64,000 bases of DNA, from positions 1 through 64,000 of the forward strand of contig NZ_JACSWC010000395.1 of the NCBI RefSeq assembly GCF_016888165.1, in the 5' to 3' direction. The first letter of the stretch is position 1; each line of letters starts with the position of its first letter. Source of the stretch: Halomicronema sp. CCY15110. Its GTDB lineage: Bacteria; Cyanobacteriota; Cyanobacteriia; Phormidesmidales; Phormidesmidaceae. Position numbers and translations under genes: made by a program. Below the pieces are notes generated by a model. The model searched no databases and was not told the origin of the DNA. It saw nothing but the letters and a program-made list of their open reading frames with translations. Positions 33,482 to 64,000 of the stretch are shown here, piece by piece.

Positions 33482-34505
33482 AGGGTTCACTCTTGAATTT
33501 CAATGCCGTGGAAGGTTTAACTCAGTTGCGATCGCAGCCTTTCAGGTAACTATTCGCACACACTCAATGCTCATGAAAATTAACTAAAAAATTTAGGCCG
33601 ATTAAAAAACATCTAATAGCAGACTCAAAATCTCTGTGTGTAAAAAGCCACATAAACTCTAGCTCAACTTTTTAAAAGTGAGCGGCTTTTGATCTAGAAA
33701 TTTTATGGAGCGCAACAACTCAGTAATGCTGGTTTTGCAGCGATCGTGCAATTTGATGCCTGCGCTTACCATGACGCCAGATTAAACGTCAGCGCTAATC
33801 GAAAACACGCCGCCACTACAATTCTTGAACTTGACACCTGTAAGACTAATAAGATGGCAGCCAGCCAGTCTGCGACCATTAGTAACAGAAAAAAGTTGTT
33901 TAAGCCATCGACTCATCAACTTTATTACTGTAAAGAAACCTGACAAAAACGATGCAGATACAGTGTTTTAGCCTTTGACCCAACCTTACTCCTCCAAAGG
34001 CCACCTACAAGGGGGCAAAGTATCTGGCAAAACTCAGTCACCTCAATCGGTCATGCTGGTGAAGATATCTGCTGCCCATGCCGTTAGCGGCCTGAGCCCT
34101 CGATCAATCATTACCGCAGAATGAGTCACAGACAAATTACTGCACAAGTCATCAGCGAGGTTGCCTTCGTCGCGATCCGATATAACAGCTCACACCAGCC
34201 TTAGATTTGACTGTGAAATTGCAAGAAGTAACTTCATTTAGCACTGCAAGAAATCTGTGGCTAGTCGCCAACTAATGGTCATTTGCACTCATGCCAGGAT
34301 GATGATCGGCTAGCCCTGAGGCGTCCCTACACACTGGACTAAATCCTAATCAATACCTGGATAACCTCGATCGCAATCATGCTAATGATTTGTCGCTAAA
34401 AGTCAAGTTGAACCATCAGGAAAGGCGATCGCGACTTGGGGGATAGGGCGATCGGCAATTCCGCAATTAGAGATATCTCGGAGTAGACATCCTGCAACCT
34501 CGATA
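33482..34505. other. About 1 kb spacer between the two giant genes
   Basis: No gene could be supported on either strand. The part next to the gene at 33481 is AT-rich and should hold its promoter; HIP1-like GCGATCG sites are scattered. No T-rich terminator or known RNA motif was recognised. Confidence 0.45.
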
Positions 34506-37500: not shown

Positions 37501-40500
37501 CATCGTCTACAAATGTGACAGTGCCCGCAATGACATCGGCTTGGGTAAAGGTTGTCTGAGTAGTGCCTTTGACCTGGAATTCGCCGCCAGTTACGGCATC
37601 AACTGTATAGACAAGAGCACTTGAAGCCGATTCTTCGTCAGTTACCGCCAAAATCGAAGTATCGATTGTCACGGTTCCTTCTTCGGTGATAGCAAGAGGG
37701 TTAATCGTGACCACAGGGGCGTCATTGACTGCGGTCAAGGTGCCCGTATAGTCGTCGCTGGTGCTGCCACCCTCGGTATCCAATGCGGTTAGCGTGTAGG
37801 CTGGCGCTACGTTAGAGCCATCGTGCTTAAAGGCAATATCGCCATCTTTGATCTGTACCCAGGTGAAGTCGGTGATGGCTGAGGTCGTATTCGTACTCAG
37901 GGCAAAGAAGCCGCCCTGCACATTCGAAACTTCAAAGGTTAAGTCAGCCTGAGCCGTCTCACCGACTTCATCAGCTGCGTCAATTTGCGTCAGCCCCAGG
38001 CCCAGAATGCCATTTTCTTTGATGGTGAAATCGAACGCGGCTAGATTAGGCGTCGTCGTGGTATCGGCAGCGAGACCAATCAGAGTAGGGTTGTCGTTCT
38101 CACGGTTAAACGCGATCGCGGCTGACTCAACCCCGGAAGTTAGCGCCCCGTCACTCACTTCAACGTCGTAAGCGGGGGCACTATCTGAGCCGTCATGGGT
38201 AAAGCTGACTAGCCCTTCGACGACCTGCCGCAGGGTAAATTCGGTTGCGGCTGCGCCGTCAACATCAAAAGCACCATTAGTAAGGTTAGTGATGGAGAAC
38301 TTTAGGTCGAGGTTGGGCGAATCTAAGTCTTCGGCACTGAGGTTGCTGGTAGTGAACTTGAAGGTTTGCCCCTCATCAATGGTGAGGGCATTGGCCAGCA
38401 AGGTGGGAGCATCAGGAGTGTTGACAAAGGTGCTCGTCAAGTCAACTTCCAGGGTGGTGGACTGGACTGGCGAGGGCACGCCATTGTCGCTCACCGTGAC
38501 GGTATAGCTGGGCGCAAACTCACTGTTGTCGTGCTGGAACGCAACACTGCCGAGGTTAAGGTCTTGCTGAGTAAAGGTGTCAGAAACCGCTAGGGCAGCG
38601 CCATTCAAGAAGAAGGTGCCTTTATTGACCGCGTCGATGCTGTAGGTCAGCAGGGCCGGATCGCCGGTCGTGCCGTCGAAGGTTTCTTCATCCACGAAAC
38701 TCAACTGCGTGGCACCATCAATGGTGACTTTTTGGCCTTGTTGAATGGCAAATAGCCCTTCAGTCGTTGCTGGTGCTAGCTCAGGCGCATCGTTGATGGG
38801 GGTAAAGTCGATAATGGCGTCGCTGGCGATCGAAATTCCCTGAGGTGTGCCATTGTCTTTAGCCGTGAGGGTATAGGTTGGCGCATCGTTGCTGCCTCCC
38901 TGCTTGAAGACCACTTCACCATCAATGACATCTTGTTGGGTAAAGGTTGTTAGCGGAGTGGCAAAAGCCGTATCTGTAATATCAAAGAAAGCACCGTTGG
39001 CCAGGTTGCTGATGGTATAGGTCAGGTTGGCCGGGCCACTCTCGGGATCGACGACTTTTAAGTCATTGATAGTCAGCGTTACAGCCTCGTCTTCGGCAAT
39101 GGTGAGGGTATTGGCTGTGATTTCAGGCGCATCATTAACGGTGGTGAGGGTCGCCGTGAAGTTTTCGAGATCAGTGCTTTCACCATCAGTCACTTCTAGG
39201 GTGAAGGTTGGCTGAGTCTCGCTACCGTTGTGCCTAAAGACAATCTGTTGGCCATCCAGCTGAGCCTGGGTAAAGGTCGTGATGGCGGTTTTGGTATCGG
39301 TGATGCTGGCAAAGAAACCACCCGTCACGTTGGACGCTGTAAATTCGATGTCCTCGGGCGCAGTGTCAGGATCGGTCACCGTAATATTTGGGAAACCGTC
39401 GGCTGGGTTGTTCAGCACCAGGGTGCTGCCTTCTTTGATCGCAAAGGGATCATTGCTGCCGCCTACGACTCCATCGCTGTCAGGGGTGAGGACGGGCGCA
39501 TCATTGACTGGAATCAGCGTGACGTTGACCGTTGACACCGGGGACGTGGCGTCGCCTAAGGCTGCACCCGCATCGGCTCCCGTGTCAGTCACGGTGACGT
39601 CAAAGCTCGGGGCTTTGTTGTCAGTGGGGGTTTCACCCGTATCGTCATGGGTAAAGGTGACCGTCTCTTGAACGAGGTCGAGCAGGGTGAAGGTGGTTTT
39701 ATTAAAGTTGCCGTTGACGACGTTGGTAACGTTGAATTCAAGATCCAGCGCCTTGGTCTCAACATCGATCGCACTCAGGTTGGCTGTCGTCAGGGTGACC
39801 GTTTTGCCTTCGGTGACGGTGAGATTTTTGTTGACCAGTTCTGGTATGTCGTTGACAGCAGTGAAGGTGAAGTCAGTGGCATCAACGGTGAGGGTGACTT
39901 GCTCAGCAGAGGGAGAACCGTTGTCATCCAGCGTGACGGTAAAACTGGGCGCGGTTTCACCACTGTGGACAAAGTCCACGAGATTATCAATGACATCCTG
40001 CTGCGTAAAGCTAGTGACATCTTTCCCACCAATCTGGAAGGTGCCGTTGGTGGTGGCATCAACGGTGTATTCCAGCTCTGCTGACGTTTGCAGTCCAGCA
40101 GCGACCTCCGCATCGGTGACGGCAAAGAGCCCAGCGGTAATGTCGATCGCGGCGTCTTCGGTAATGGCGATCGGCGTGCTAATCGTCAGCGTCGGCGCAT
40201 CGTTGACCGGGGTAAAGGTGATGTTGGCATCAACCGGAGCTAACGCAATGGGCGTCGGAGTCACTCCAGCTCGATTATCTTCAACCGTAATGCTAAAGGA
40301 AGGCTCGATTTCGCCGTCATAGTTGAAGGTCACAGTCCCCGCGACCACATCCGCTAGGGTAAACGTCGTGGCTGAAAAGGCCGCGTTGATCGCGGCATCG
40401 ACCAGCGCATTCCCGGTGTTGCCTGCTACCGTAATCGAAATTTCGCTATTGAGGCTGTCAACATCTTCAATGTTCAGCACATCGGTCGTAATGACCAGTT

Positions 40501-43500
40501 CCTCGCCTTCGGTAATGGCGAACTCGTTAGTGATAATTTCGGGCGCGTCGTTGACGCCATTGACGGTGCCGCCGCCCGTGGCCGTGGCGGTGTTGTCGCC
40601 GTCGGTGACGCTGATGTTATAGCTGGGAGCGGTTTCAGTGCCGTCGTTTTCAAAGAAGACGCGACCCAGGTTGATGTCATTCTGAGTGAATGTCGTGACT
40701 GGGTTGGCATTACCAACCAGGAAGAAGTCGCCCCCTTGCACATTGGAGACGGTGAATTCGAGGTCGCGATCGTCAAAATCGCCATCGGTGGCTCTAATGA
40801 TCAATCGGCTGATCGTAACGTTGCCATCTTCTTGCACGGTAAAGCCGGGCAAGATGCCGTCACTCGGCTCAAAAACGACAGGCGTTGCCGTGGGGTCAAC
40901 CGGCTCTAAGAAAACGGGGGTATCGTTGACCTCCGTAAAGGTGACATTGCCTGCCACAGTCGTTTCAGCGGCAACAACCGCATCTTGATCATTAGCCGTA
41001 ATGCTAAAGATGGGGGCCGTTTCACCGTCATAAAGGAAGGTCACATCCCCATTGACGATATCGGAGCGATTGAAGGTGATGCCGTCGGTCGCGTCGGTAT
41101 CACCGGCAAAGATAAAGCTACCGGCATTGGCTCCCTTAATGGTGAACTCAATGTCGGGGGCTGGGGTCGCCGCATCGATATCGATCGCATCCAACACCTT
41201 CGTGGTGACCAGTAACTCTTCCCCTTCAGTCACCACAAAGTTGTTCTTTAAGATAATGGGCGGGTCATTGACCGTCGCACCGATCGCCCCGGTGATAGTC
41301 TGCGGCGGCGACGATAGGCCCTCACCATCCGTTACGGTCACGGTGTAAACCGGGGCAATTTCCGTGCCGTCATGCTGGAAGAAGACGCCCCCAGCGTTCA
41401 CCTGGGCCAGCGTAAAGCTCGTACTCGCGACCCCACTGACAATAAAGTTGCCGCCTTCAATATTCGTCAGGGCAAAAGTCAGATTAGCGGCCCCTGACTC
41501 TTCATCGGTGGCCCCCAGGTTGGCACTGGTGATGGCCACCTGGCCACCTTCATCCACCGTGATGGGCGTCAGCGCATCAACGGGGTCAACCGTCAACGGC
41601 GTGCCATCTAAAACCGGTGCATCATTCACCGCCGTGAAATCGGCAATGTTACCCGCCGCTTTGTCCGTCAAGCCGCCCGGATCTTTTACTTCAACGGTGA
41701 AGGTGGGCTCACCGTCATCGTTGGCATTCTCATATAAGAAGGTGACCTTGCCCTGGAAAATATCGGACAGGGTAAAGGTCGGGTTAGCAACCCCGTTGAG
41801 CAGAAAACTACCGGCATCAGTTCCGGTAATCGTGAAGGTGAGATCAGCCGGATTGGTATTGTCTTCGTCGATCGCGTTCAACACGTTGCCATCGATCAAG
41901 AGTTCCTGATCTTCCACCACAGTGAAGTTATTAACCGTGATTTCGGGCGCATCATTGACCGGGATAACGATGCCGCCGCCCGTAGCGGTGGCAGTGCTGT
42001 CGCCATCGGTGACGCTGATGTCATAGCTAGGAGCAGTTACCGTGCCGTCATTCACAAAGAGGACACGGCCCAGGTTGATGTCGCCTTGGGTAAAGGTGGT
42101 GACTGGAGTGGTGCTGCCCACTAAGCGGAAGCTGCCCCCTGCCACATTGGAGACGGTGAAGGTGAGGTCGCGATCGTCAAAGTCGCCATCGGTCGCCCGA
42201 ATAATCAGGCGATTAATCGCGACGTTGCCGCCCTCTTGCACGGTAAAGTCAGGCAAGATGCCGTCGCTAAGTTCAAACACGACCGGCGTCACCGCTGGGT
42301 TGACCGGCTCCAAGAAGACTGGCGTGTCGTTGACTTCAGTAAAGTTAACGCTGCCAGCAACGGTGGTTTCAGCTGCACCACCGGCATCTTGGTCGTTGGC
42401 CGTGATGCTAAAGACGGGCGCAGTTTCACCGTCATACAGGAAGGACACATTGCCCGCCACAATGTCGGCACGAGTAAAGGTGGTGGCGGCAACGCCACCA
42501 ACCAAGAAACTACCCGCATTCGCACCGGTAATGGTGAATTGGATATCAGGCGCAGGGGTTGCTGCATCAACATCGATCGCATCCAACACGCTCGTCGTAA
42601 CCAGGAGTTCTTCCCCTTCCACGACATCGAAGTCATTCACCAAAATGAGCGGCGGATCATTAACCGTCGCGCCGATCGCCCCAGTGATGGTCTGCGGCGG
42701 CGACGATAGGCCATCGCCATCCGTTACGGTCACGGTGTAAACCGGGGCAATCTCCGTGCCGTCATGCTGGAAGAACACCGCCCCCGCATTTACCCGAGCC
42801 AGCGTAAAGCTCGTACTCACGACCCCATTGACAATAAAGTCGCCGCCTTCAATATTCGTCAGGGTAAAAGTCAGATTAGCGGCCCCTGACTCTTCATCGG
42901 TGGCCCCCAGGTTGGCGCTGGTGATGGCCACCTGACCACCTTCATCCACCGTGATGGGCGTCAGCGCATCAACAGGGTCAACCGTCAACGGCGTGCCATC
43001 TAAAACCGGCGCATCATTCACCGCAGTAAAGTCAACGATATTGCCCGCCGCAATGTCGGTTAGAGCGGTCGGCGTAGTATCGTCAGCCAGCTTAATCGTA
43101 AAGCTGGGGGCACCGGCATCGTTGGCATTCTCATATAAGAAGGTGACCTTGCCCTGGAAGATATCGGACAGGGTAAAGGTCGGGCTGGCAACCCCGTTGA
43201 GCAAGAAGCTGCCCGCATCGGTACCGGTGATGGTGAAGGTGAGGTCAGCCGCGAGCGTGTCGTCGTCGATCGCATTCAACACGCTGCCATCAACTTTGAG
43301 GACCTGATCTTCCACCACGGTGAAGCTATTGACCGTGATATCGGGGCGATCGGCAACGGGCGCAATCCCCACGTTGTAGACCAGCGCTTGAAAGCCGCCA
43401 TCGCCATCGGAGACCTGTAACGTAAAGGTATCGTCGTTAAAGGTCGCGCCATCCCCATCGCCATCAAAGTTGTCGTCAGGCGTATAGGTAAAGTTTTGCA

Positions 43501-46500
43501 GGCCATTGCCCGTGCTCGCCCCCAACGCCAGTGAGCCATTGCTGGGACCAGAGATAATATTCCAGGTCAGGGTATCTTGGGTGCCAACATCGCTCGCTTT
43601 GACGGTGAAATCGAAGGGGGTATCTTCAGTGACGGGGCCTAAATTAGTGGGTGATGCCGCTGGATCGACCAGGACCGGAGCGACATTCGCGACCTCAATC
43701 TCAGTCGTAAAGGCATCAGTGGCTCCCTCGGCATCAGTCACGGTGACTTTGACCGAATAGGTGCCCGTGCCCTCATCTAAGTAGGTGTGCGAGAGCCCGG
43801 CAAAGGAAACAGTAGTCTGATCCGTATTCGTAAAGATGATGGCGTCAGTATCGTTGAACGTTTCAACGGTGCCGTCACCCCAGTCCACGGTGATGGAATG
43901 AACGTCGTCTAAATCGACCTCGGTGGAGTTGTCGATATCATCAAAGCTGCCGCTAAGGGTGACGGTATCGCCTTCATTAATGCTGGTGACATCAGGCGTG
44001 ACCGCGAGGTTGATCGGCGCATCATTTACCGGGTTGACATTGACCCCAACGCTGGCAAACGAGATGCCGCCGTCCTCATCAATGACCTTAACGATAAAGT
44101 TGTCACCCCCAAAATAATCCGGGTCAGGCGTGTAAGAGAGGGTCTGAGTGTCCCCCGTGCCAGTGGTCACAAAGCTAGCGGTGCCCTGAGTCGGCGCGGT
44201 ATCGATACTCCAGGTAAAGGTCTCAGAACTGATATCCGACGCTGTCAGGGTCAGCGTGCCTGCATCGTCTTCATCGATGGTGAGGAAGCTACTGGCCGGC
44301 GTCACTTCAGGCGGCGTGTTATCAATGGTGATCGACTTAGTGGCGATCGCCGTCTTGCCAAAGCTATCGACCACGGTGGCCGTGATCGAGGCGGCACCAT
44401 TGATGTTGAACTCATGACCCGTGTTGAAGGAATAAGTTTGGGTCTTAGTATTGAACTTTAAATCTGACGAATTTAAGACTGTCGGGGTCGTGCCGTCGTT
44501 CCAGTCGATAGTGACGGTAAAGGTGTCACCGACATCCGGATCGACAAAACTGCCGCTGAGGGTGATGGACTCACCTTCGTCGATGGTGGCAGCGGACGTG
44601 GCTAGCTTGAAATTGCTCGGGGCATCCGCCACGGGTGTCACATTAGCGGTGAAGGCGATCGTGCTCGTGCCGCCATCGCCATCATCCACCTTGATTTCAA
44701 AGGTTTCACTACCGTTGAAATTAGCCAGCGGCGTGTAGGTGAAAAACTGTGTCGCTGCTGCTCCCGCAGGGGGCGTAAGGGTACCGCCCGACGATGGCGC
44801 GGTGACACTCCAGGTAAACGGATCGGCAGCCCCGGCTGGGTCAGTGGCCGTGAGAAAGAAGCTCTTAGTGCCATCTTCGGCTAGAGAAAACGTCGGGGTA
44901 ATGGAAGGGGTAACGGTGGGAGCCACATTCACCACCGAAATATTCCGAATTTCGGTGTCAGTCAGACCACCAGAGTCAGTGACTTCGACTGAAATATTAC
45001 CCGCTGTGAACGCCGTATCATCGGCATAGGAATGGGAAGCTGAGAAGGCCCCACTGCTATTCGCCGACACTGTGCTCGTTTTGCCATCCCCCCAAGTAAT
45101 TTCAACCGTCGCGGTATCGTTAATATCGGGGTCGTCAATTTGCCCCGTCAGAGTAAAGGTTTGCCCTTCGCTGACCGTCCCAGGTGCGCTGAGGCTGGTG
45201 ATCGTGGGAGCCTCATTGACATCGGTCACCTGCACAAAGACTGATTCGGTGTCCGTGTCAGCGCCATTGGTGGCCGAAACGGTCAGCTCATAGTTTTGCG
45301 GAAAAGTCTCGAAGTCGAGGTCATCGGCATCGTTGACTGTGATTGCACCTGTCGTCCCATCGATCGCAAACGCTAACGTGCCATCACTATCATTGTCAGG
45401 ATTACCACCCGTAATCTCCCAGGTGTCGACTGTCACAGCATTATCAATGGCGACGGTGCCCACCACGTCGCCATTATTGGCTAGCTCAGATACAGGAAAT
45501 AGCTGGGCGGCTGTAATCTGCGGCGGCACGTCAAGTTGAATCGTGATACCAGCGGTGGCGTTAGCCGTTTGCTGAAAGCCCGTGCCATCGACCGCAAAGT
45601 AGTAAATGACCCCATTCTGCGCTTCAAAGCTCGCGCTGGTGGTCTGGCTACCCGAGGCGCTCAAATCGTCGGCAACACGAGTCAGACTCCCAAAGGTAAA
45701 GGTGGGATCAGTCGCAGCGATCGTGCTGCTATATACCGCCAGGGCAGTGCCAATGGTGCTGCCCTCAGTGTTCACGTTGACTAGGCCATCCACATTAGAG
45801 GTCCAAGTCCACCAGACGGAGTCGTTGGAAAGATTGTTCGCCCCCGGAGTCGTATCGTGAATCGGCTCACCGACCTGGTTATTCGCCAGGGCGTTGCCAA
45901 TTGCATCGGGCGTACCTGGCGTGAGGGCGATCGCATTTTGAATATCATTATTGGCCGCCAAGATGCCGGGATAGGTGGATACGGCGGCAGCGGTGAGGAG
46001 ATTGCGCCGCTCGACTTCGCCCCAAAAGGCGTCGAGAGTCCAGTTGCCGCCGCGATCGGCGTGGCCAAGCAAGTGAGTGGATGCAGCAATATTGGCGTGG
46101 GTCAGCGTATGGATGGCAGACAAGAACTCAGTGCCAGCATCGCCCGCGGCGACCTGGCAACCGTAAAAGTGGATATCCTTAACGGACGTCTGGGCCGTCC
46201 ACTGTTGAAGGCGATCGCGATAACGCGGCAACGTTGACAAGCTGAGTTCCGCATTGCCCAACCAGAGCTGCCCCGGCGCACCGTGAGCCACCACAAAGAC
46301 CTCGGTCGCATCGGCACGGGCCTGCAGAGCCGCAGCAATGTACGCCACACCATCACTATCGGGAGGCAAAATCAAGGTTTCCGCATCGAGGGCAATTCCG
46401 GTAGCTAGCTGCAAAGGAGCCTCAATACCCGCATCAACAAAAACAATAGACTTCGTTTTATTCGCCATGATTCGCATCCCAAAAAAATCTACAACCTGCA

Positions 46501-46537
46501 CACCGAACCCACTCTTTTTACTCAAACGCTTACTCAT
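34577..46537 (-). CDS. Giant DUF4347-cadherin/CSPG-repeat surface protein (about 3986 residues)
   Basis: Possible starts are ATG 46537, 46477 and 46468 (MANKTKSIVFVDAG); the last gives a typical DUF4347 N-terminus. Order: DUF4347 (about 25-190: VFVVAHGAPGQLWLGN, IHFYGCQVAAGDAGTEF, STHLLGHADRGGNWTLDAF); a PPC-like jelly roll (about 195-340); a cadherin domain (DLDFETFPQNYELTV); alternating PKD-like (VEITWGDGKTSTV) and tandem-95-like domains; twenty CSPG-type repeats; three or four VCBS/tandem-95 domains; five C-terminal NPDV repeats. DUF4347 marks many giant cyanobacterial exported proteins. No classical signal peptide is seen. A 464-residue block (CSPG repeats 1-4) is tandemly duplicated. Probably a secreted Ca2+-binding adhesin or matrix filament; paralogue of the gene at 26051. 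Confidence 0.87.
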   Translation of the reverse strand: MSKRLSKKSGFGVQVVDFFGMRIMANKTKSIVFVDAGIEAPLQLATGIALDAETLILPPDSDGVAYIAAALQARADATEVFVVAHGAPGQLWLGNAELSLSTLPRYRDRLQQWTAQTSVKDIHFYGCQVAAGDAGTEFLSAIHTLTHANIAASTHLLGHADRGGNWTLDAFWGEVERRNLLTAAAVSTYPGILAANNDIQNAIALTPGTPDAIGNALANNQVGEPIHDTTPGANNLSNDSVWWTWTSNVDGLVNVNTEGSTIGTALAVYSSTIAATDPTFTFGSLTRVADDLSASGSQTTSASFEAQNGVIYYFAVDGTGFQQTANATAGITIQLDVPPQITAAQLFPVSELANNGDVVGTVAIDNAVTVDTWEITGGNPDNDSDGTLAFAIDGTTGAITVNDADDLDFETFPQNYELTVSATNGADTDTESVFVQVTDVNEAPTITSLSAPGTVSEGQTFTLTGQIDDPDINDTATVEITWGDGKTSTVSANSSGAFSASHSYADDTAFTAGNISVEVTDSGGLTDTEIRNISVVNVAPTVTPSITPTFSLAEDGTKSFFLTATDPAGAADPFTWSVTAPSSGGTLTPPAGAAATQFFTYTPLANFNGSETFEIKVDDGDGGTSTIAFTANVTPVADAPSNFKLATSAATIDEGESITLSGSFVDPDVGDTFTVTIDWNDGTTPTVLNSSDLKFNTKTQTYSFNTGHEFNINGAASITATVVDSFGKTAIATKSITIDNTPPEVTPASSFLTIDEDDAGTLTLTASDISSETFTWSIDTAPTQGTASFVTTGTGDTQTLSYTPDPDYFGGDNFIVKVIDEDGGISFASVGVNVNPVNDAPINLAVTPDVTSINEGDTVTLSGSFDDIDNSTEVDLDDVHSITVDWGDGTVETFNDTDAIIFTNTDQTTVSFAGLSHTYLDEGTGTYSVKVTVTDAEGATDAFTTEIEVANVAPVLVDPAASPTNLGPVTEDTPFDFTVKASDVGTQDTLTWNIISGPSNGSLALGASTGNGLQNFTYTPDDNFDGDGDGATFNDDTFTLQVSDGDGGFQALVYNVGIAPVADRPDITVNSFTVVEDQVLKVDGSVLNAIDDDTLAADLTFTITGTDAGSFLLNGVASPTFTLSDIFQGKVTFLYENANDAGAPSFTIKLADDTTPTALTDIAAGNIVDFTAVNDAPVLDGTPLTVDPVDALTPITVDEGGQVAITSANLGATDEESGAANLTFTLTNIEGGDFIVNGVVSTSFTLARVNAGAVFFQHDGTEIAPVYTVTVTDGDGLSSPPQTITGAIGATVNDPPLILVNDFDVVEGEELLVTTSVLDAIDVDAATPAPDIQFTITGANAGSFLVGGVAATTFTRADIVAGNVSFLYDGETAPVFSITANDQDAGGAAETTVAGSVNFTEVNDTPVFLEPVNPAVTPVVFELSDGILPDFTVQEGGNVAINRLIIRATDGDFDDRDLTFTVSNVAGGSFRLVGSTTPVTTFTQGDINLGRVLFVNDGTVTAPSYDISVTDGDSTATATGGGIVIPVNDAPEITVNNFTVVEDQELLIDGNVLNAIDEDNTNPADLTFTITGTDAGSFLLNGVANPTFTLSDIFQGKVTFLYENANDDGEPTFTVEVKDPGGLTDKAAGNIADFTAVNDAPVLDGTPLTVDPVDALTPITVDEGGQVAITSANLGATDEESGAANLTFALTNIEGGNFIVSGVASTSFTLAQVNAGGVFFQHDGTEIAPVYTVTVTDGEGLSSPPQTITGAIGATVNDPPIILKNNFVVTEGEELLVTTKVLDAIDIDAATPAPDIEFTIKGANAGSFIFAGDTDATDGITFNRSDIVNGDVTFLYDGETAPIFSITANDQDAVVAAETTVAGNVTFTEVNDTPVFLEPVDPTATPVVFEPSDGILPGFTVQEDGNVTISRLIIRATDGDFDDRDLEFTVSNVQGGDFFLVGNANPVTTFTQNDINLGRVFFENDGTETAPSYNISVTDGDNTATATGGGTVNGVNDAPEIITNEFAITEGEELVITTDVLNIEDVDSLNSEISITVAGNTGNALVDAAINAAFSATTFTLADVVAGTVTFNYDGEIEPSFSITVEDNRAGVTPTPIALAPVDANITFTPVNDAPTLTISTPIAITEDAAIDITAGLFAVTDAEVAAGLQTSAELEYTVDATTNGTFQIGGKDVTSFTQQDVIDNLVDFVHSGETAPSFTVTLDDNGSPSAEQVTLTVDATDFTFTAVNDIPELVNKNLTVTEGKTVTLTTANLSAIDVETKALDLEFNVTNVVNGNFNKTTFTLLDLVQETVTFTHDDTGETPTDNKAPSFDVTVTDTGADAGAALGDATSPVSTVNVTLIPVNDAPVLTPDSDGVVGGSNDPFAIKEGSTLVLNNPADGFPNITVTDPDTAPEDIEFTASNVTGGFFASITDTKTAITTFTQAQLDGQQIVFRHNGSETQPTFTLEVTDGESTDLENFTATLTTVNDAPEITANTLTIAEDEAVTLTINDLKVVDPESGPANLTYTISNLANGAFFDITDTAFATPLTTFTQQDVIDGEVVFKQGGSNDAPTYTLTAKDNGTPQGISIASDAIIDFTPINDAPELAPATTEGLFAIQQGQKVTIDGATQLSFVDEETFDGTTGDPALLTYSIDAVNKGTFFLNGAALAVSDTFTQQDLNLGSVAFQHDNSEFAPSYTVTVSDNGVPSPVQSTTLEVDLTSTFVNTPDAPTLLANALTIDEGQTFKFTTSNLSAEDLDSPNLDLKFSITNLTNGAFDVDGAAATEFTLRQVVEGLVSFTHDGSDSAPAYDVEVSDGALTSGVESAAIAFNRENDNPTLIGLAADTTTTPNLAAFDFTIKENGILGLGLTQIDAADEVGETAQADLTFEVSNVQGGFFALSTNTTSAITDFTWVQIKDGDIAFKHDGSNVAPAYTLTALDTEGGSTSDDYTGTLTAVNDAPVVTINPLAITEEGTVTIDTSILAVTDEESASSALVYTVDAVTGGEFQVKGTTQTTFTQADVIAGTVTFVDDGLDDNAPTFSLTLTDEAVGVTPAITTTINSDDNPGDPNDLNFAVAANFTPVNDLPTPDPFIINFPTVVEGGTTVVVSGVTAAPGEVQIFVTDEETTNPVELVYTVDSIANANFQVNGSNATTFTQDDIDNNRVTFVHDDSEVAPTFTLSLQDNNGGTGANTLTQTVTPAFQLANEAPELTKNTLSPIEGQEITLTTDNIFASDREDLVTQLTFEITDVAGGTFFLNDVALDTTAAGDNLGEFSIAQVAAGEITFKDDGDETPPSYKVNVIDRDGAALAAPEAATIDLSQFPVNDAPEITVANFPIVEGTLLELDLTILETADVDNAATELTYTVSNLTGGEFLVFDSTATPPALVSTTTFTQQDVIDGEISFQPDKNSEVPPSFTLTVSDGVDGTDTVNVSVASGNITFTPVNDAPVTVADSFTTDEETPLTGLNVTANDTDDSGTALQVTKINGATGPVTTTKGATVEIVSNLINYDPGTAFQSLAVGATDTDTFTYTVEDNDPSGNKSATGTVTITIEGKNDLPTLTTPSLTAATTEGTPITLNALVNSGATDIDFGDVLSISKVTNGTFGAVTFTNETLTYTPGVSLLGGEVETENITFTVSDGNGGTVDGTVEITLTGVNDPPIAVANSGTGFRTTESVAFRTANVLTNDFDPEGGAVTLDSVNTSALRGLLVNNGNGTFNYDPNGVFDALPVGKTRNDTFSYTIKDDQGATASTTVSIQVTGQLSSFLDYEKQLKLGNLAAVAPGNVIDVLPLAQLYDERYYLNQNPDVARLVGSTFSSGFQHFVTSGINEGRNPSVLYNESFYRANNADVRNAIASGALSSGLSHFLTSGHREGRDPSAFFDQSDYLLNNPDVNSAVNSGGLASAFEHYVKFGVDDNRLPALTLFDARFYLNSNPDLVRAGVTQASAFDHFQQFGQFEGRRGSAAYTESSYRGFNPDVANAINSGALPNGFQHFEAAGRFEGRFVLPV
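34580..35230 (-). repeat. C-terminal array of five NPDV repeats (giant protein 2)
   Basis: Five units beginning LYDERYYLNQNPDVARLV and ending FQHFEAAGRFEGR. They align unit by unit, and with the preceding KLxNxAAVAPGxVIDxLPLAQ linker, to the array at 26054-26690. Confidence 0.8.
40545..41940 (-). repeat. 1392-bp tandem duplication, second copy (giant protein 2)
   Basis: Landmarks recur at fixed offset: TCTGCGGCGGCGACGATAGG at 41299 and 42691, and GTGCCATCTAAAACCGG at 41601 and 42993, both exactly 1392 bp (464 codons) apart. Toward the ends the offset grows to 1401-1404 bp through small codon-multiple indels. Encodes CSPG repeats 5-8. Confidence 0.9.
41941..43340 (-). repeat. 1392-bp tandem duplication, first copy (giant protein 2)
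   Basis: Directly adjoins the copy at 40545-41940 and encodes CSPG repeats 1-4. Long stretches are nearly identical in DNA, including synonymous sites, so the duplication is recent or kept alike by gene conversion. Confidence 0.9.
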
Positions 46538-56883: not shown

Positions 56884-59800
56884 ATGTTCACCAACGTCAA
56901 GCCCACTGTGCGCCACATCGCGCCCGATGATCTGAACGGGCGATCGCTGGTAAAAGTGGTCTACGTGGTGCTGGAGCCTCAGTACCAGAGTGCTCTTTCA
57001 TCGGCCATTCGCGCGATCAACACCAACAATTCCGAAGTCGCGTTTGAAGTCAGCGGCTATTTGATCGAAGAGCTGCGCAGTCAGGAAAACTACGAAGCCT
57101 TTAAACAAGATATTTCAGAAGCCAATATTTTTATCGCCTCGCTGATCTTTATCGAAGACTTGGCCGACAAAGTGGTGGAAGCGGTGCAGCCCCACCGCGA
57201 CAGCTTGGATGCGGCGGTGGTCTTCCCCTCCATGCCCCAGGTGATGCGCCTGAACAAGATGGGCAGCTTCTCCATGGCGCAGTTGGGCCAGTCTAAAAGC
57301 GTCATCGGCGAATTCATGAAGAAGCGCCGCCAGAAGAAAGGCAGCGGCTTTGAAGACGCCATGCTGAAGCTGCTGCGGACGTTGCCGAATGTGCTGAAGT
57401 ACCTGCCGGTGGAAAAGGCCCAGGATGCGCGCAACTTTATGCTCAGCTTCCAGTATTGGCTGGGCGGGTCGCCCGAAAACCTGGAAAACTTTTTCCTGAT
57501 GTTGGCCGATCGCTACGTCTTCACCGACAAAACGATCGAAGGTGCGCCCCAGGCGGACAGCCTGGAACATGCTGAGCCCGTGACTTTCCCCGATGTCGGC
57601 ATCTGGCACCCCATGGCCACCCAGATGTTTGAAGACCTGAAAGAGTATCTGAACTGGTACGAGTCTCGGAAGGACTTGCCAGAGGAACTGCGTGATCCCC
57701 TGGCTCCCTGCGTCGGTCTGGTGCTACAACGGACGCACCTGGTCACCGGGGACGAAGCTCACTACGCGGCCATGGTACAGGAGTTGGAGTACATGGGCGC
57801 GCGCGTGATTCCCGTGTTTTCCGGCGGTCTGGACTTCGCCAAACCCGTAAATGAGTACTTTTTTGATCCGTTAAAGCCCGATCATGCGATCGTGGATTCT
57901 GTGGTGTCCCTCACGGGTTTTGCGCTGGTGGGTGGCCCCGCGAGACAGGATCATCCGAAGGCGATCGAAACCCTCAAGCGTTTGAACCGCCCCTACATGG
58001 TGGCGCTGCCCCTGGTGTTCCAAACCACTGAGGAGTGGGAAGAGAGTGATCTGGGTCTGCACCCGATTCAGGTGGCGTTGCAGATGGCGATTCCCGAGTT
58101 GGATGGGGCGATCGAGCCCATCGTCCTCTCCGGTCGTGACGGCATGACGGGCCGCGCCATCACCCTACAAGACCGCATCAGTTCCATCGCGCAGCGGGCC
58201 ATCAAGTGGGGCAACCTGCGCCGCAAGCCCAAGCTCGACAAGAAACTGGCGATCACCGTCTTCAGCTTTCCGCCGGATAAGGGCAATGTGGGTACCGCCG
58301 CGTACTTGGATGTGTTCGGCTCCATCTACAAAGTGCTGGAGGCCATGAAGGGCAACGGCTACGACCTACCGGAACTGCCGGAGTCGCCGGAAGCCCTGAT
58401 GCAGGAGGTGATCCACGACGCCCAAGCCCAGTATGCCAGCCCAGAGTTGAACGTCGCCTACCGCATGTCGGTGCCTGAGTACGAGGAACTGACCCCCTAC
58501 TCCACTCGCCTAGAAGAAAACTGGGGCGCGCCTCCTGGAAACCTGAACACCGACGGGCAAAACCTGTTGGTGTACGGCAAGGCCTTCGGCAACGTCTTCA
58601 TCGGCGTGCAGCCCACGTTTGGTTACGAAGGCGACCCGATGCGGCTGCTGTTCTCCCGCTCCGCCAGTCCCCACCACGGTTTTGCGGCCTACTACACCTA
58701 CCTGGAAAAAATCTGGGGCGCGGATGCGGTGCTGCACTTTGGCACCCACGGCTCGCTGGAGTTTATGCCTGGTAAGCAAATGGGCATGTCGGGCACCTGC
58801 TACCCCGACAGCCTGATCGGCACCACGCCGAACCTCTATTACTACGCGGCGAACAACCCCTCCGAAGCGACGATCGCTAAACGCCGGGGCTATGCCGAAA
58901 CCATCAGCTACCTCACCCCGCCCGCCGAAAACGCGGGTCTGTACAAGGGGCTGAAGGAACTGAGCGAACTGATTAGCTCCTACCAGTCCCAGAAGGACAG
59001 CGGTCGGGCCATCCAGATTGTGAACGCGATTGTCGAAACGGCGCGGGTCTGCAACCTCGATCGCGACGTGCCCTTACCGGAAATTGACGCCAGCGACATG
59101 TCCGCTGAGGACCGGGACAACCTAGTCGGCAAGATCTACATCAAGCTGATGGAAATTGAGTCGCGCCTGTTGCCCTGTGGTTTGCATATCATTGGTAAGC
59201 CCCCGACCGCTGAGGAAGCGATCGCCACCCTGGTCAACATCGCTGGGCTGGATCGCGAAGAAGAAGGCATCATGAGCCTGCAACGGGTCATCGCCGAGAG
59301 CATTGGCCGCGACATCGACGAAATCTATGGCAACAGCGATCGAGGCGTGCTCGACGACGTGCAACTGCTGTACGACATCAATCAGGCCATCCGCGATGCC
59401 GTCGCGGCCCTGGTCGGCGAACAGGTGGATGCCGAAGGTCGCGTCTCTATGGTGTCGCGCTTGAACTTCCTCAACATTGGCCGCAAAGAGCCCTGGGTGA
59501 AGGCGCTCCACGATGCGGGTTACACCAAAGTGGAAGGCGAAACCATCAAGCCTCTGATGGAGTTCTTGGAATACTGTCTGGAGCAGGTCTGCGCCGACAA
59601 CGAACTGGGTGCCCTGCTGAAGGGTCTGGAAGGCGAATATGTCATTCCAGGGCCGGGTGGCGACCCGATTCGGAACCCCGATGTGCTGCCCACCGGCAAG
59701 AATCTGCACGCCCTCGATCCCCAGTCCATCCCCACCCTGGCAGCAGTCCAATCCGCCAAGATCGTGGTCGATCGCCTGCTGGAGCGCCAAAAGCAGGAAA

Positions 59801-60882
59801 ACGGCGGTCGCTATCCTGAAAGCATCGCCACCGTCCTCTGGGGCACCGACAACATCAAAACCTATGGCGAATCCCTCGCCCAAATGATGTGGTTTGTCGG
59901 CGTCAAGCCCGTGCCCGATGCCCTCGGTCGGGTGAATAAGCTGGAGTTGCTGTCTTTAGAGGAACTCGGTCGGCCCCGCGTGGATATCGTCGTGAACTGC
60001 TCCGGCGTCTTCCGCGACTTGTTCATTAACCAGATGGCCCTGCTCGATCGCGCCGTGAAAATGGCCGCCGAAGCCGATGAGCCTCTGGAAATGAACTTCG
60101 TCCGCAAGCACGCCCTAGAGCAAGCCGCCGAAATGGGCTGCGACCTGCGCACTGCCGCCACCCGCATCTTCTCCAACGCTTCTGGCTCCTATGCCTCCAA
60201 CGTCAACCTGGCAGTGGAAAACAGCAGTTGGGAAGAGGAAACCGAACTCCAGGAGATGTACCTGAATCGCAAGTCCTTTGCCTTCAACTCCGACAATCCG
60301 GGGGTGATGGACGAGTCGCGCGGCATCTTTGAGTCTTCGCTGAAGAAGGCGGAAGTTACCTTCCAAAACCTGGACTCTTCGGAGATCTCGCTAACGGATG
60401 TGTCCCACTACTTTGACTCCGACCCCACCAAGGTGGTGGCGAGTCTGCGGGGCGACGGCACCAAGCCCGCCTCCTACGTAGCGGACACCACGACGGCGAA
60501 CGCTCAGGTGCGCACCCTGTCGGAAACGGTGCGTCTGGATGCCCGTACCAAGATGCTCAATCCCAAGTGGTACGAGGGCATGCTCTCCCACGGCTACGAA
60601 GGGGTGCGGGAACTCTCGAAGCGCCTGGTGAACACCATGGGCTGGTCGGCGACCGCTGACGCGGTGGACAACTGGGTCTACGAAGATACCAACTCCACCT
60701 TCATCAAGGATCCGGAGATGTGTAAGCGCCTCATGGATCTGAACCCCAACTCCTTCCGCCGCATGGTGTCGACCCTGCTGGAAGTGAACGGGCGCGGCTA
60801 CTGGGAAACCAGCGACGAAAACCTGGATCGGCTCCAAGAGCTGTACCAGGAAGTCGAAGACCGCATCGAAGGCGTCGAGTAA
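56884..60882 (+). CDS. chlH: Magnesium chelatase subunit H
   Basis: ChlH is the large porphyrin-binding subunit of Mg-chelatase, which with ChlD and ChlI inserts Mg2+ into protoporphyrin IX, the first step specific to chlorophyll. The product is 1332 residues, full length: N-terminal DUF3479 part ([20 protein letters not shown]), then the CobN/Mg-chelatase domain with [20 protein letters not shown] near residue 618 and [21 protein letters not shown] near 980. The ribosome site AAGGAG decides the start. A hairpin follows the gene. It is also the partner of GUN4, which is notable because a GUN4-domain gene lies 0.9 kb downstream. Confidence 0.98.
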
Positions 60883-60895
60883 GTCAAAACAAGAA

Positions 60896-60926
60896 GGGGG
60901 CGGTTCCCTGCGAGGGAACCGTCCCC
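60896..60926 (+). terminator. Hairpin after chlH
   Basis: GGGGGCGGTTCCCT pairs with AGGGAACCGTCCCC (one G:T pair) around GCG, 14 bp past the stop. There is no T tract, but position and stability suggest a transcript end. Confidence 0.7.
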
Positions 60927-61001
60927 TGGGCGACTGGAAGGGGTGGGCGATCGCCTGCCCCTTTTCGCTATAGTTGAGCCAACGTGATGTGACGTAACGC
61001 C

Positions 61002-61607
61002 ATGACGTACGCCCCCTCTCAACTCCTGACCTTTGAAGCGTTCCTGGCTCAGTATCGAGACGAGCCAGCCTTTGAACTGGCCGACGGAGAGCTGATTGAT
61101 ATGGAACCGACCGGCACACACGAGGCGGTTGCGGGAAAAGTGGCCAGCAGGCTTAACCTGGCCATTAACCACATGGGTGCTGATTGGTTGATTCCCCGAA
61201 CGTGCATTTTGCGACCCTTTAACGACCAGGCTACCGCCAGACGCCCCGATGTCACCGTGTTGGATGAGTTAGCATTGAGGGACGAGCCGCTGTGGGAACG
61301 AGAGCCTGTGATTACCCAAGGCACCTCAGTCAAGCTGGTGGTCGAGGTCGTCAGCACTAACTGGGAAACCGACTACGCCCGCAAAGTGGAAGAGTACGCC
61401 CTGATGGGCATTCCTGAATATTGGATTGTCGATTTTCGCGGATTGGGCGGCGTAGCGTTTATTGGTCGGCCCAAACAGCCCACTGTCACTGTGTGTCAAC
61501 TCGCCAACGATGACTATGTGAAAAGCACGTTTCGGTTAGGGCAGGAAATTGTCTCTTCAGCCTTTCCTGACCTGACTTTAAGGCTGGATGATGTGATGCC
61601 CCGATAA
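61002..61607 (+). CDS. Uma2 family (DUF820) putative endonuclease
   Basis: The product is 201 residues with the Uma2 pattern: LTFEAFLAQYRDEPAFELADGELIDMEPTG, ARRPDVTVLDE, VKLVVEVVSTNWETDYARKVEEYALMGIPEYWIVD. The Asp of RRPDV and Glu of VVEVVS are the likely PD-(D/E)XK residues. It is the third family member in this window and the closest gene to the TIR operon, with which it converges. Function unsettled for the family. Confidence 0.88.
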   Translation: MTYAPSQLLTFEAFLAQYRDEPAFELADGELIDMEPTGTHEAVAGKVASRLNLAINHMGADWLIPRTCILRPFNDQATARRPDVTVLDELALRDEPLWEREPVITQGTSVKLVVEVVSTNWETDYARKVEEYALMGIPEYWIVDFRGLGGVAFIGRPKQPTVTVCQLANDDYVKSTFRLGQEIVSSAFPDLTLRLDDVMPR

Positions 61608-61774
61608 TGCTGGGGTGTGCATCTTGTCGCTGGCATAATCGGCTGCGATCGCGTTAGCAACCATTTTTTTCTACAGGCGATTGCATCCTTCGCACACAGA
61701 ATGACCAAGGCGGTAATGGTGATCTCATACATATCTTCGAAGCCAACAGTCACACTGCCTTTCAAAATACCATT

Positions 61775-62731
61775 TTAATTTTGGAAGCCCTTTGATTTCC
61801 TCTTATGAGGTTTACTAGAGTCATTAAATTTACCGCGAGATTTAAGTCTCAAGCACACCGCATATCTCTCAAAAAGCTTATATAAGTGGTGACCACAAGA
61901 TTCACTGCCAACTGCCCATCCATGGATGTGAACCCAATTCAGTGAAGGTAGATGGCCAAAAGGTGCATTAAGGCTGTACGTAAGTTCTGACTCTTGCGCC
62001 CAAGCCCCGTTGATTCGCCAACCAACTTTATCAGAGAAAGTCTCAAATTTACGTTTTGAGCGAGACCAGATTTCTCTTTGTACCGAAAAGCCAAATCTTT
62101 TATTACTATATTGGGTCCATAGAGAATCAATTTCAAAAATAACTCCACAGGGGAAGTTGTCAATATCTTCATAAACAAACTGAGTTTCGGATTCGTCACC
62201 AGAAAAATAAATCATGATTCGGGCGGTTTCAGCATCAGCTTCTTCCCAGTTTTCATCTTCCAATAAACCTTTTAGGCATCTAAATTGGTTTCCTATTCCT
62301 TGTGTTGGCTGGCTGGTGTCACTTTCTGTCTGAATCGACCCGTCTGTCATACCTTTACCAGGAAAATATCCGCGTATTGTTTCGAAAAAGTGGTCTGGAG
62401 GCAGTTTGCCATCCATCACATCTACAGTCTGAATTGCGGCTACCGACAGCCACAGTTCTCCCTCCAACAGCAGCGGAAAAATTGGCTTTTTGAGTTTCAG
62501 CGCCAAACTTAATTCACATTGCACCCAGTGGGAATCTTCTGATTGCGGCGACATCACGACCAGAAAGACTGAACTCTGTTTCAGGTGATTTTGAATGACT
62601 TTGGGCCAAGTGCTGCCATAATCGATGCGATCGTCAATCCAGATGGGTAATCGGTGTGACTGTAGCGCCTGCACTAATGTACTGACATAGGCTTGGTCGT
62701 GCCGACTGTAGCTGATAAAAATAAAACTCAT
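61775..62731 (-). CDS. TIR-GUN4 fusion protein
   Basis: From the ATG at 62731 the product is 318 residues. Residues 1-95 are a TIR domain (FIFISYSRHDQAYVSTLV, box 2 IWIDDRIDYGSTW, SHWVQCELSLAL with Glu73 at the NADase position). Residues 152-293 are a GUN4 domain: CLKGLLEDENWEEADAETAR, NFPCGVIFEIDSLWTQYS, RFGFSVQREIWSR, VGWRINGAWAQ, LNAPFGHLPSLNW. GUN4 binds porphyrins and activates Mg-chelatase through ChlH; GUN4-like domains are also fused to signalling or death-type domains in cyanobacteria. The ATG overlaps the stop of the upstream TIR gene by four bases (ATGA), so the two are coupled. No HIP1 octamer lies inside. Probably a sensor-effector; what GUN4 senses here is unknown. Confidence 0.88.
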   Translation of the reverse strand: MSFIFISYSRHDQAYVSTLVQALQSHRLPIWIDDRIDYGSTWPKVIQNHLKQSSVFLVVMSPQSEDSHWVQCELSLALKLKKPIFPLLLEGELWLSVAAIQTVDVMDGKLPPDHFFETIRGYFPGKGMTDGSIQTESDTSQPTQGIGNQFRCLKGLLEDENWEEADAETARIMIYFSGDESETQFVYEDIDNFPCGVIFEIDSLWTQYSNKRFGFSVQREIWSRSKRKFETFSDKVGWRINGAWAQESELTYSLNAPFGHLPSLNWVHIHGWAVGSESCGHHLYKLFERYAVCLRLKSRGKFNDSSKPHKRKSKGFQN

Positions 62732-63681
62732 GATTGCGCAGCATCCAGTTTTTGCAGTTGCTCGACAACGAAGATTTGAAAATCTGACAACTGCTTCCAC
62801 GCTTCCTGAAACGTTTTGAAGTTACGGCTTTGAAGTGCATGGGTGTTGCCGTCTGAGTATCGGGGGTTAAATCCTAGAACTTCTCTTTGATGAGGAAGCT
62901 GATGCCAATCCTGCCGATTCGGCATCCAAACTGCCTTGACGCGACGAAAAACCCCAAAGTCCTCTTCTCGGAGAGCATCATCTAAAAATTCAACGACATG
63001 GGTGACTTTTGCTTGTTGATGCAAAATCATTAAATCGCCAGCTTTAGGTAAGCCAACTCCACGTCCGTTTCGCCGCCACATCAATTCAAAGATCGGTTGT
63101 TGACCGCTTCTCACACCTTCTAATCGATAGGCCCAGATACCTGAAGGATGTTTGATATTTTTGATATATAATATTTTGCTACGGTCGATCTCTCGTATCA
63201 ATGAGACCGTTGCCTTGTTCGAAAAATCCTGAGCATCTGGAAGAGAAACGGAGTCAAGGTTTTGAGGTTTTACACCCGTGATGCCCCACTCCAACAAGTC
63301 GAATGCTTTTTGGTTTTGGAGTGTCTCACCAAATTTAACGAACTGGTATTGGCTTAAAAAGTACTCATCCTCCGGAATACTTTCAATTCCTGGCAACAGC
63401 ACCGGAATGATTCGAACACTTTTACTGACGCATCGTTGTATTAAAGCTCGCAGTTCGAATTCTTGCCATTTGCCCAAATCTTCGCCGATGAAAATGGCTG
63501 CTGCTTTGACAGTTCCGATCGCCCTTTGAATTTCATCCTGAAACTGAGCACCCGGAACGATTTCTTCTTCATCAAGCCACGGACGAAGTCCTCGCTGCTT
63601 CAGCTCTCGATAAATTTGCCGAATTGATGGCTTGTCTTTACTGCTGTGCGCCAGAAAAACATCGAACTGCTGCTCAGTCAT
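62728..63681 (-). CDS. TIR domain protein with C-terminal PUA/EVE-like domain
   Basis: From the ATG at 63681 (a TTG two codons earlier is possible) the product is 317 residues. Residues 5-105 are a TIR domain (FDVFLAHSSKDKPSIRQIYREL, RGLRPWLDEEEIVPG, KWQEFELRALIQRC), with the Glu of the W-x3-E motif expected for NAD hydrolysis. The C-terminal part (about 165-290) has short strands, GLPKAGDLMILHQQAKVTHVVEFLDD and VFRRVKAVWMP, that resemble the PUA/EVE fold, which reads modified bases; this call is tentative. First gene of an operon with the TIR-GUN4 gene, with no HIP1 octamers. Candidate anti-phage or abortive-infection protein (inference). Confidence 0.8.
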   Translation of the reverse strand: MTEQQFDVFLAHSSKDKPSIRQIYRELKQRGLRPWLDEEEIVPGAQFQDEIQRAIGTVKAAAIFIGEDLGKWQEFELRALIQRCVSKSVRIIPVLLPGIESIPEDEYFLSQYQFVKFGETLQNQKAFDLLEWGITGVKPQNLDSVSLPDAQDFSNKATVSLIREIDRSKILYIKNIKHPSGIWAYRLEGVRSGQQPIFELMWRRNGRGVGLPKAGDLMILHQQAKVTHVVEFLDDALREEDFGVFRRVKAVWMPNRQDWHQLPHQREVLGFNPRYSDGNTHALQSRNFKTFQEAWKQLSDFQIFVVEQLQKLDAAQS

Positions 63682-64000
63682 TGCCAAAAGCCACTCTGGG
63701 GACTACGGAGTATCGCTTGACTCAAATTTTACTGTCTTTACATTGTTGAGGCAGCTTTATGACCATCAGTTCCCAGGCTTAAGTAAGAAAATGAACGTTA
63801 TCAGAGCCATGTCAAGTCCCAGCTATATCAGCTACAGAGAATCAAAGTTGAGATTCCAGCACAGAATTCAGGATGTTTGTAAGCGATCGCCACTCAAACC
63901 CAACCATCCGTGCCCCCCAGTGAGGACTAATGGGTGGACGGCAAATACGAACTGCGAGAGTTTCGGGGGAGCGATCGCCTCCTCTCCCCCACGTTTCCCA
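63682..64000. other. Region upstream of the TIR operon
   Basis: It contains the operon promoter (AT-rich, 63715-63860) and, from about 63880, HIP1 octamers typical of the native chromosome. No gene supported before the window ends. Confidence 0.4.

Follow-up and report, generated by a model that had tools for sequence, protein, structure and literature searches.

Genes A and B encode two different, translationally coupled TIR proteins within the 64-kb stretch of cyanobacterial DNA that was analyzed here (the window). In protein A the TIR domain is followed by a second domain, termed X, and in protein B it is followed by a GUN4 domain. Judged from their sequences, the two genes probably function together, as a split TIR/EVE-like/GUN4 module whose TIRs are of the NADase type. 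The chances are about even that A and B represent the split form of a single-chain TIR-X-GUN4 sensor-effector of cyanobacteria.

The pair is probably a TIR effector system with EVE-like and GUN4 sensing, and its role in defense or cell death is putative. The EVE-like X domain of A would read a nucleic-acid state, perhaps modified or foreign DNA or RNA, and the GUN4 domain of B would act as a scaffold for recognition or docking that has lost the known mode of tetrapyrrole binding. A meeting of X and GUN4 may cause the TIR domains to assemble and then either to cleave NAD+ or to produce a TIR signal, which could result in growth stop or cell killing during infection or stress.

Layout of the gene pair and its TIR domains

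The features of the pair and its surroundings are listed in Table 1. The stop codon TGA of A overlaps the start codon ATG of B, as the earlier sequence-only reading had proposed, and the same overlap is present in the pair of a congener, G170. That reading also placed the genes on DNA free of the HIP1 octamer. The window contains 94 HIP1 sites (chance mean 1.97) and none at 61653-63882, but because longer HIP1-free gaps exist elsewhere in the window (for example, 38,120-44,342), this absence is weak evidence. The GC content is 0.54-0.62 over chlH and a Uma2 gene (57,000-61,499) and 0.42-0.47 at 61,500-63,499.

Table 1. Coordinates of the A-B pair, its domains, and associated features
Feature	Position	Strand	Description
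Gene A	62728..63681	-	317 aa; TIR + ~150-aa domain X
TIR domain of A	63316..63660	-	Residues 8-122, W72, E76; Pfam TIR_2 1.3e-20; aligned to 7uxr, 7uwg
X domain of A	62752..63213	-	About residues 157-310; EVE/YTH-like predicted fold, AF2 model
ATGA overlap (A stop/B start)	62728..62731	-	4-nt overlap, also in G170
Gene B	61775..62731	-	318 aa; TIR + GUN4
TIR domain of B	62408..62722	-	Residues 4-108, W69, E73; Pfam TIR_2 5.2e-22; aligned to SARM1
GUN4 domain of B	61928..62290	-	Residues 148-268; Pfam GUN4 1e-36; phmmer against Synechocystis Gun4 1y6i 3.5e-17
Place of tetrapyrrole motif LxNxLR in B	61928..61945	-	Residues 263-268, reads SLNWVH
Tail of B	61778..61927	-	Residues 269-318; aligns with X-fused GUN4s L137 and L140, then basic extension
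Uma2 gene	61002..61607	+	Pfam Uma2 5.4e-31; between chlH and pair; outside the system
chlH	56884..60882	+	Pfam; neighbor, association not conserved
GUN4 3'-end element in own genome	C155:23510, C419:2075		

The TIR_2 model scores above its Pfam cut-off in both proteins. In A, W72 and E76 align with the W-x3-E of TIR chains 7uxr and 7uwg, and A also matches AbTIR 8g83 at 2.6e-6. In B, W69 and E73 align with the W-x3-E of SARM1. These alignments to structure chains bear out the suggestion that the NADase-type glutamate is conserved in the two TIR domains.

TIR domain matches and the W-x3-E glutamate are common to the pair and to the TIR effectors SARM1, AbTIR, Thoeris ThsB, retron-TIR, and CRISPR-associated Cat1. 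In contrast to those effectors, the sensor parts of A and B are X and GUN4, and Pfam recognizes no ThsA, retron, or CRISPR partner beside the pair. Pfam assigns the neighbors as Uma2, chlH, an MFS gene, and a 206-amino-acid ORF with no match. Among the neighbors tested in this way, no known defense gene was recognized, and the search for an adjacent ThsA that would indicate Thoeris membership was likewise negative.

Several other proteins were seen in passing. At L042:3718-6264, G170 encodes an 848-amino-acid protein that, by eye, has leucine-rich repeats and a GTPase-like middle, and that ends in an A-type TIR with 57% identity to the TIR of A. A second two-gene TIR arrangement occurs in other cyanobacteria, in which a conserved protein of about 165 amino acids directly precedes TIR-GUN4, TIR-TPR, or other TIR genes. 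Copies are located at L049:6874-7380, L051:6694-7191, L053:5026-5481, L059:7019-7525, L112:7535-8029, and L113:7010-7504. They were spotted by eye, except for L112 and L113, which were found by BLAST, and the L059 copy has no Pfam match. Elsewhere in the window, two minus-strand genes (26051-33490 and 34577-46537) encode very large cadherin-like proteins (2479 and 3986 amino acids), the longer of which has DUF4347 close to its N terminus, and a plus-strand ORF of 1341 amino acids (9307-13332) has no Pfam match at 1e-5.

Domain X and its partnership with GUN4

The X domain is classified by predicted fold and not by sequence family. Pfam searches of A gave no match of the X part to EVE, YTH, or PUA families up to an E-value of 10, the same database returned only weak unrelated matches for 29 X sequences, and the best sequence match of X to a solved structure has an unconvincing E-value of 0.84. 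An AlphaFold2 model built from the 29 sequences reached a pLDDT of 87.3 and a pTM of 0.85. With this model, Foldseek found nothing at an E-value of 0.001 or better, but YTH domains, 2gbs, and further EVE or PUA-like entries stand at the top of its list. In a VIA-align comparison, YTHDF3 ranks first (Z 8.1, rmsd 3.2, 125 aligned), followed by 2ar1 and 2hd9 (Z 7.7 and 7.6), both presumably EVE, and DrmA and VcaM4I have Z scores of 7.0-7.2. The best 50 of the 339 chains with Z of 2 or more are all YTH, EVE-type, DrmA, or VcaM4I and belong to one superfamily, with Z near 8 being a moderate score.

X thus shares a predicted fold with EVE/YTH readers of the PUA superfamily, but unlike them has no sequence match to the corresponding Pfam families. 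On the basis of moderate fold-match scores, X is taken as EVE/YTH-like and is a candidate, not proven, reader of modified bases. The label 'PUA/EVE-like' that had been given to this part of A therefore gains support from fold prediction. A term search of an EVE survey gave neither 'cyanobacteri' nor 'GUN4' (PMC7641849).

A pattern-based scan of a named genome collection with the X alignment revealed 30 X loci, all with cyanobacterial titles. Architectures were assigned by BLAST on the ORFs of all 30 and by Pfam on the X ORFs of about 15-16. In 14 of the 30 loci, X is preceded by an effector domain, which is TIR, SEFIR, or caspase. In seven, X and GUN4 share one ORF, and the effector domain is TIR (L135, L138, L140, L143), SEFIR (L136, L137), or caspase (L144, called by BLAST, whose reading frame is interrupted in the caspase region as well as in GUN4). 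Four loci have an effector and X with neither GUN4 nor FGE-sulfatase (L139 and L141 with TIR, L142 and L146 with caspase). The remaining 16 loci lack an effector domain in the X ORF, with X standing alone, behind an HTH, or as fragments; in one of these, L157, a separate TIR gene adjoins the X fragment. Among congeners, G389 has a caspase-X-GUN4 protein, and G396 has, at L115:6336-7762, a TIR-X gene and, 63 bp beyond it, a GUN4 frame that is interrupted by a stop and a frame change; the arrangement resembles a decayed TIR-X-GUN4.

Three further X loci carry an FGE-sulfatase (L145 with TIR, L147 and L148 with caspase). This domain, of the type targeted by cyanobacterial diversity-generating retroelements (DGRs), occupies the place that GUN4 has after X in other loci.

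The nearest relatives of the GUN4 domain of B are themselves fused to X. When this domain was compared with the collected ORFs, 110 matched, including B itself and some duplicate loci. After B itself, the best matches are the X-fused GUN4s of L140 (47%, 3e-49) and L137 (50%, 4e-48), and the next match, at 5e-32, is not X-fused. The X domains of L137 and L140 are 56-57% identical to that of A, and their GUN4 tails can be aligned with that of B beyond GHLP. Because L137 and L140 resemble both the X of A and the GUN4 of B, the two halves of the pair match one single-chain architecture. The other X-fused GUN4s appear only from line 53 of the 110 matches onward and are not close, so this tie holds for a subfamily and not for all X-fused GUN4s. 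Since such relatives fuse X and GUN4 in one protein, A and B probably act together as a single sensor-effector. Searches of viral contigs with X gave 46 pattern stretches and no relative; A has one weak TIR match among phages and matches eight plasmid records, none with 80% coverage.

Perhaps the proteins regulate rather than kill, with TIRs that give a small signal or scaffold a stress or development pathway, and with X and GUN4 as ordinary input modules. The free recombination of X, GUN4, caspase, TIR, and FGS modules is in keeping with such a role, and DGR-targeted cyanobacterial signaling proteins with such domains have been proposed to tune regulation (PMC7517822). However, the NADase-TIR glutamate is present in both A and B, and the effector before X is TIR, SEFIR, or caspase in all 14 loci that have one. 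We consider a purely regulatory role unlikely.

Tetrapyrrole residues, distribution, and exchange of gene B

The sequence-only reading proposed that the GUN4 domain of B may sense a tetrapyrrole state or bind ChlH. The chlH gene ends 0.9 kb from the pair, with the Uma2 gene in between. That proximity holds in the window but is not conserved. In G170, chlH is on contig C3 and the pair is on C14; G396 likewise has chlH (C5) and TIR-X (C1) on separate contigs. The DNA behind chlH in G170 matches positions 60,913 to 61,600 of the window at 87% and then stops, and a further 800 bp has no match to the pair. Because chlH and the pair are apart in G170, the neighborhood gives no evidence for a role connected with chlorophyll.

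The residues known from tetrapyrrole-binding GUN4 proteins are mostly missing in B. A single substitution of the asparagine in the LxNxLR motif is reported to ablate bilin binding by Chlamydomonas GUN4, and GUN4 paralogues have lost this asparagine (PMC10156173). In Synechocystis numbering, residues F196 and R214 contribute to porphyrin binding, and a mutant at W192 shows altered properties (PMC8967248). B shares the GUN4 domain with Synechocystis Gun4, but in our mapping, by alignment to 1y6i, it has L, E, and H at the positions of F196, W192, and R214. At the LxNxLR motif it keeps only the asparagine (N265), and the other three of the four motif residues are lost. L137 and L140 read TLRWVE at the motif, and the organism's true GUN4 (the best in its genome, on contig C65) keeps LTNQLR. 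A structure model of B (pLDDT 63) was too weak for a fold search.

Together, the missing residues and the unconserved chlH adjacency make tetrapyrrole sensing or ChlH binding by B unlikely, judged on sequence. A GUN4 that binds porphyrin, bilin, or ChlH, and through which photosynthetic state would control the TIR, would agree with the clear GUN4 domain, the nearness of chlH in the window, and the kept asparagine, and such a function was proposed for GUN4 fusions generally by Kaur et al. 2020 (PMC7159879); given the substitutions in B and in its closest X-fused relatives, it is highly improbable as an account of the pair.

Relatives of A were collected from 386 genomes of the phylum (often with five candidates scored per genome) and 39 relatives. 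In this set, the intact pair is found in two genomes only, that of the window (G000) and G170, where it forms locus L041. Co-occurrence of A and B, which the sequence-only reading had named as a check, thus extends to a second genome with the same overlap but is rare. Full-length relatives of A are encoded by G170 (90% identity), by contig C49 of the same organism (45%), and by G396 (52%, residues 1-309); congeners G386-G389 have partial matches or none.

Comparison of the two pairs shows that B has changed its body. Protein A is 90% identical between them, the TIR of B 72%, and the GUN4 of B only 34%. In 90-nt blocks, the DNA identity of A is 0.80-0.94 throughout; that of B is 0.96 in the first block, then 0.73, 0.64, and about 0.5 in GUN4. 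The uniform identity of A and the falling identity of B argue that the body of B was exchanged and A was kept. The GUN4 domain of the B protein in G170 is nearest to one on contig C419 of the window's organism (67%).

Each kind of gene can exist alone: the A paralogue on C49 has no B alongside, and B-like TIR-GUN4 genes without A occur on C155 and in G170 at C2:322240. A chance shuffling together of two TIR genes with no joint function, which such solitary genes would suit, is nevertheless very doubtful given that two species share the ATGA overlap and that X and GUN4 are united in one ORF elsewhere, including in the nearest relatives of the GUN4 of B.

The sequence-only reading called the system undescribed. 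Neither the two-gene pair nor the X-GUN4 (EVE-like-GUN4) module was found in the open-licence papers searched, but GUN4 and TIR in one polypeptide are already described by Kaur et al. 2020 (PMC7159879). In that line of work, cyanobacterial GUN4 is fused to kinase, caspase, trypsin, or TIR, and a conflict-type context is proposed (Kaur et al. 2020, 2021). B shares with those fusions the TIR and GUN4 in one cyanobacterial polypeptide. It differs in being coupled to another TIR protein that carries an EVE-like domain, in the repeated X-GUN4 pairing, and in lacking most tetrapyrrole residues. PADLOC assigned B to PD-T4-6 (1e-37), which we rejected: the match falls on the GUN4 part (model positions 302-447), and B has no kinase match. 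The PADLOC model (PD-T4-6, PDLC04062) may mislabel cyanobacterial GUN4 proteins as a defense kinase.

Variable tails of cyanobacterial GUN4 proteins

A 22-nt element, CTTCTCTCGCRTCSAGACTTGT, is located downstream of many GUN4 genes. In the window's own genome, a slightly narrower form occurs twice within three mismatches, both times at GUN4 3' ends, and a reversed control occurs nowhere. The element is present in 65 of the 386 genomes (35 of 142 genera), and the reversed control in six. Among viral contigs, it has no exact match.

The tails were studied in 92 loci (L165-L256), of which 32 were returned by searches and 60 were picked among the matches listed. They contain 102 element sites, 101 of them unique. 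A GUN4 core lies upstream of 88, and 84 of these have a clear GHLP-like end; some of the 13 sites with no GUN4 core upstream are remnants. The 84 sites correspond to 82 GUN4 ends, because two ends carry the element twice.

A segment of 25-255 nt separates GUN4 from the element at these 82 ends. It sits at the place of LxNxLR, and of the four motif residues it matches none in 67 ends, one in 13, and two in 2. Its composition (A 17, C 9, G 40, T 35%) differs from that of the GUN4 core (A 32, C 16, G 27, T 26%); the median G+T is 0.77, with eight of the 82 below 0.6. In-frame stops are rare (1 in 1910 codons) compared with off-frame stops (206 in 3729), so the segment is translated. The element follows in any frame relative to GUN4: frames 0, 1, and 2 are used by 32, 27, and 23 ends, counting the first element of each, or by 32, 28, and 24 of the 84 sites (chi-square p 0.56). 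Over 34 nt, the element is similarly close to its consensus whichever frame is used (identities of 0.914, 0.909, and 0.890), and the consensus gives a stop in each frame, the peptides being LLSRRDL, LFSRVETCKL, and SSLASRLVNCNI.

The segments are nearly all different (79 of 82 unique). Of the 40 most similar among 565 core pairs, 34 have a segment identity of 0.21-0.57, which resembles that of random segment pairs (median 0.46, 95% point 0.57), despite cores that are about 89-97% identical. Four pairs share their segment (0.96-1.0), and two are tandem-element artefacts. Such sharing between related genomes means that turnover is not constant, which speaks against an active process. Two of the loci, L232 and L233, are neighbors in one genome. 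Named records of this kind are WP_308418394.1, BBD62845.1, and WP_187707574.1, with 2, 2, and 5 mismatches to the element; by eye, the segment of BBD62845.1 is not G/T-rich. At B itself the 22-nt element is absent and the corresponding stretch is balanced in composition, and inspection of the B gene of G170 by eye shows a G/T-rich stretch together with an incomplete copy of the element.

Cyanobacterial DGRs, with FGS/CLec targets, likewise combine an effector with a C-terminal variable recognition module, and FGS replaces GUN4 after X in the three X loci noted above. The GUN4 tails differ from this pattern in that both the length and the frame of the segment vary, and there is no reverse transcriptase (RVT_1) match in three of the carrier genomes (G000, G170, and G149). 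Two segments that were searched in their own genomes matched themselves alone, the next E-value being 0.5 or worse. These observations leave a resident DGR unsupported as the source of tails in those three genomes. The other five of the eight carrier genomes tested do contain RVT_1, so a DGR may operate elsewhere.

Tentatively, and at somewhat below even probability, the sequences suggest that the GUN4 domain of cyanobacterial effector and signaling proteins is a diversified recognition scaffold rather than a tetrapyrrole sensor. A dedicated process other than a resident DGR would insert new, mostly G/T-rich DNA of any length at LxNxLR, before a conserved element of about 45 bp that allows translation and a stop in all three frames. 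B would then be a member whose tail is fixed and whose partner is an EVE-like TIR reader, and in the G170 pair the GUN4 would be of the hypervariable type.

The module joins TIR effectors to an EVE-like reader and GUN4, and the chlorophyll explanation that might have been expected is weakened. If the three-frame hypervariable tail reflects an active process, it would be a diversity system with no visible reverse transcriptase. The pair suggests that, in the immunity or cell death of cyanobacteria, GUN4 may serve as a variable domain for recognition.
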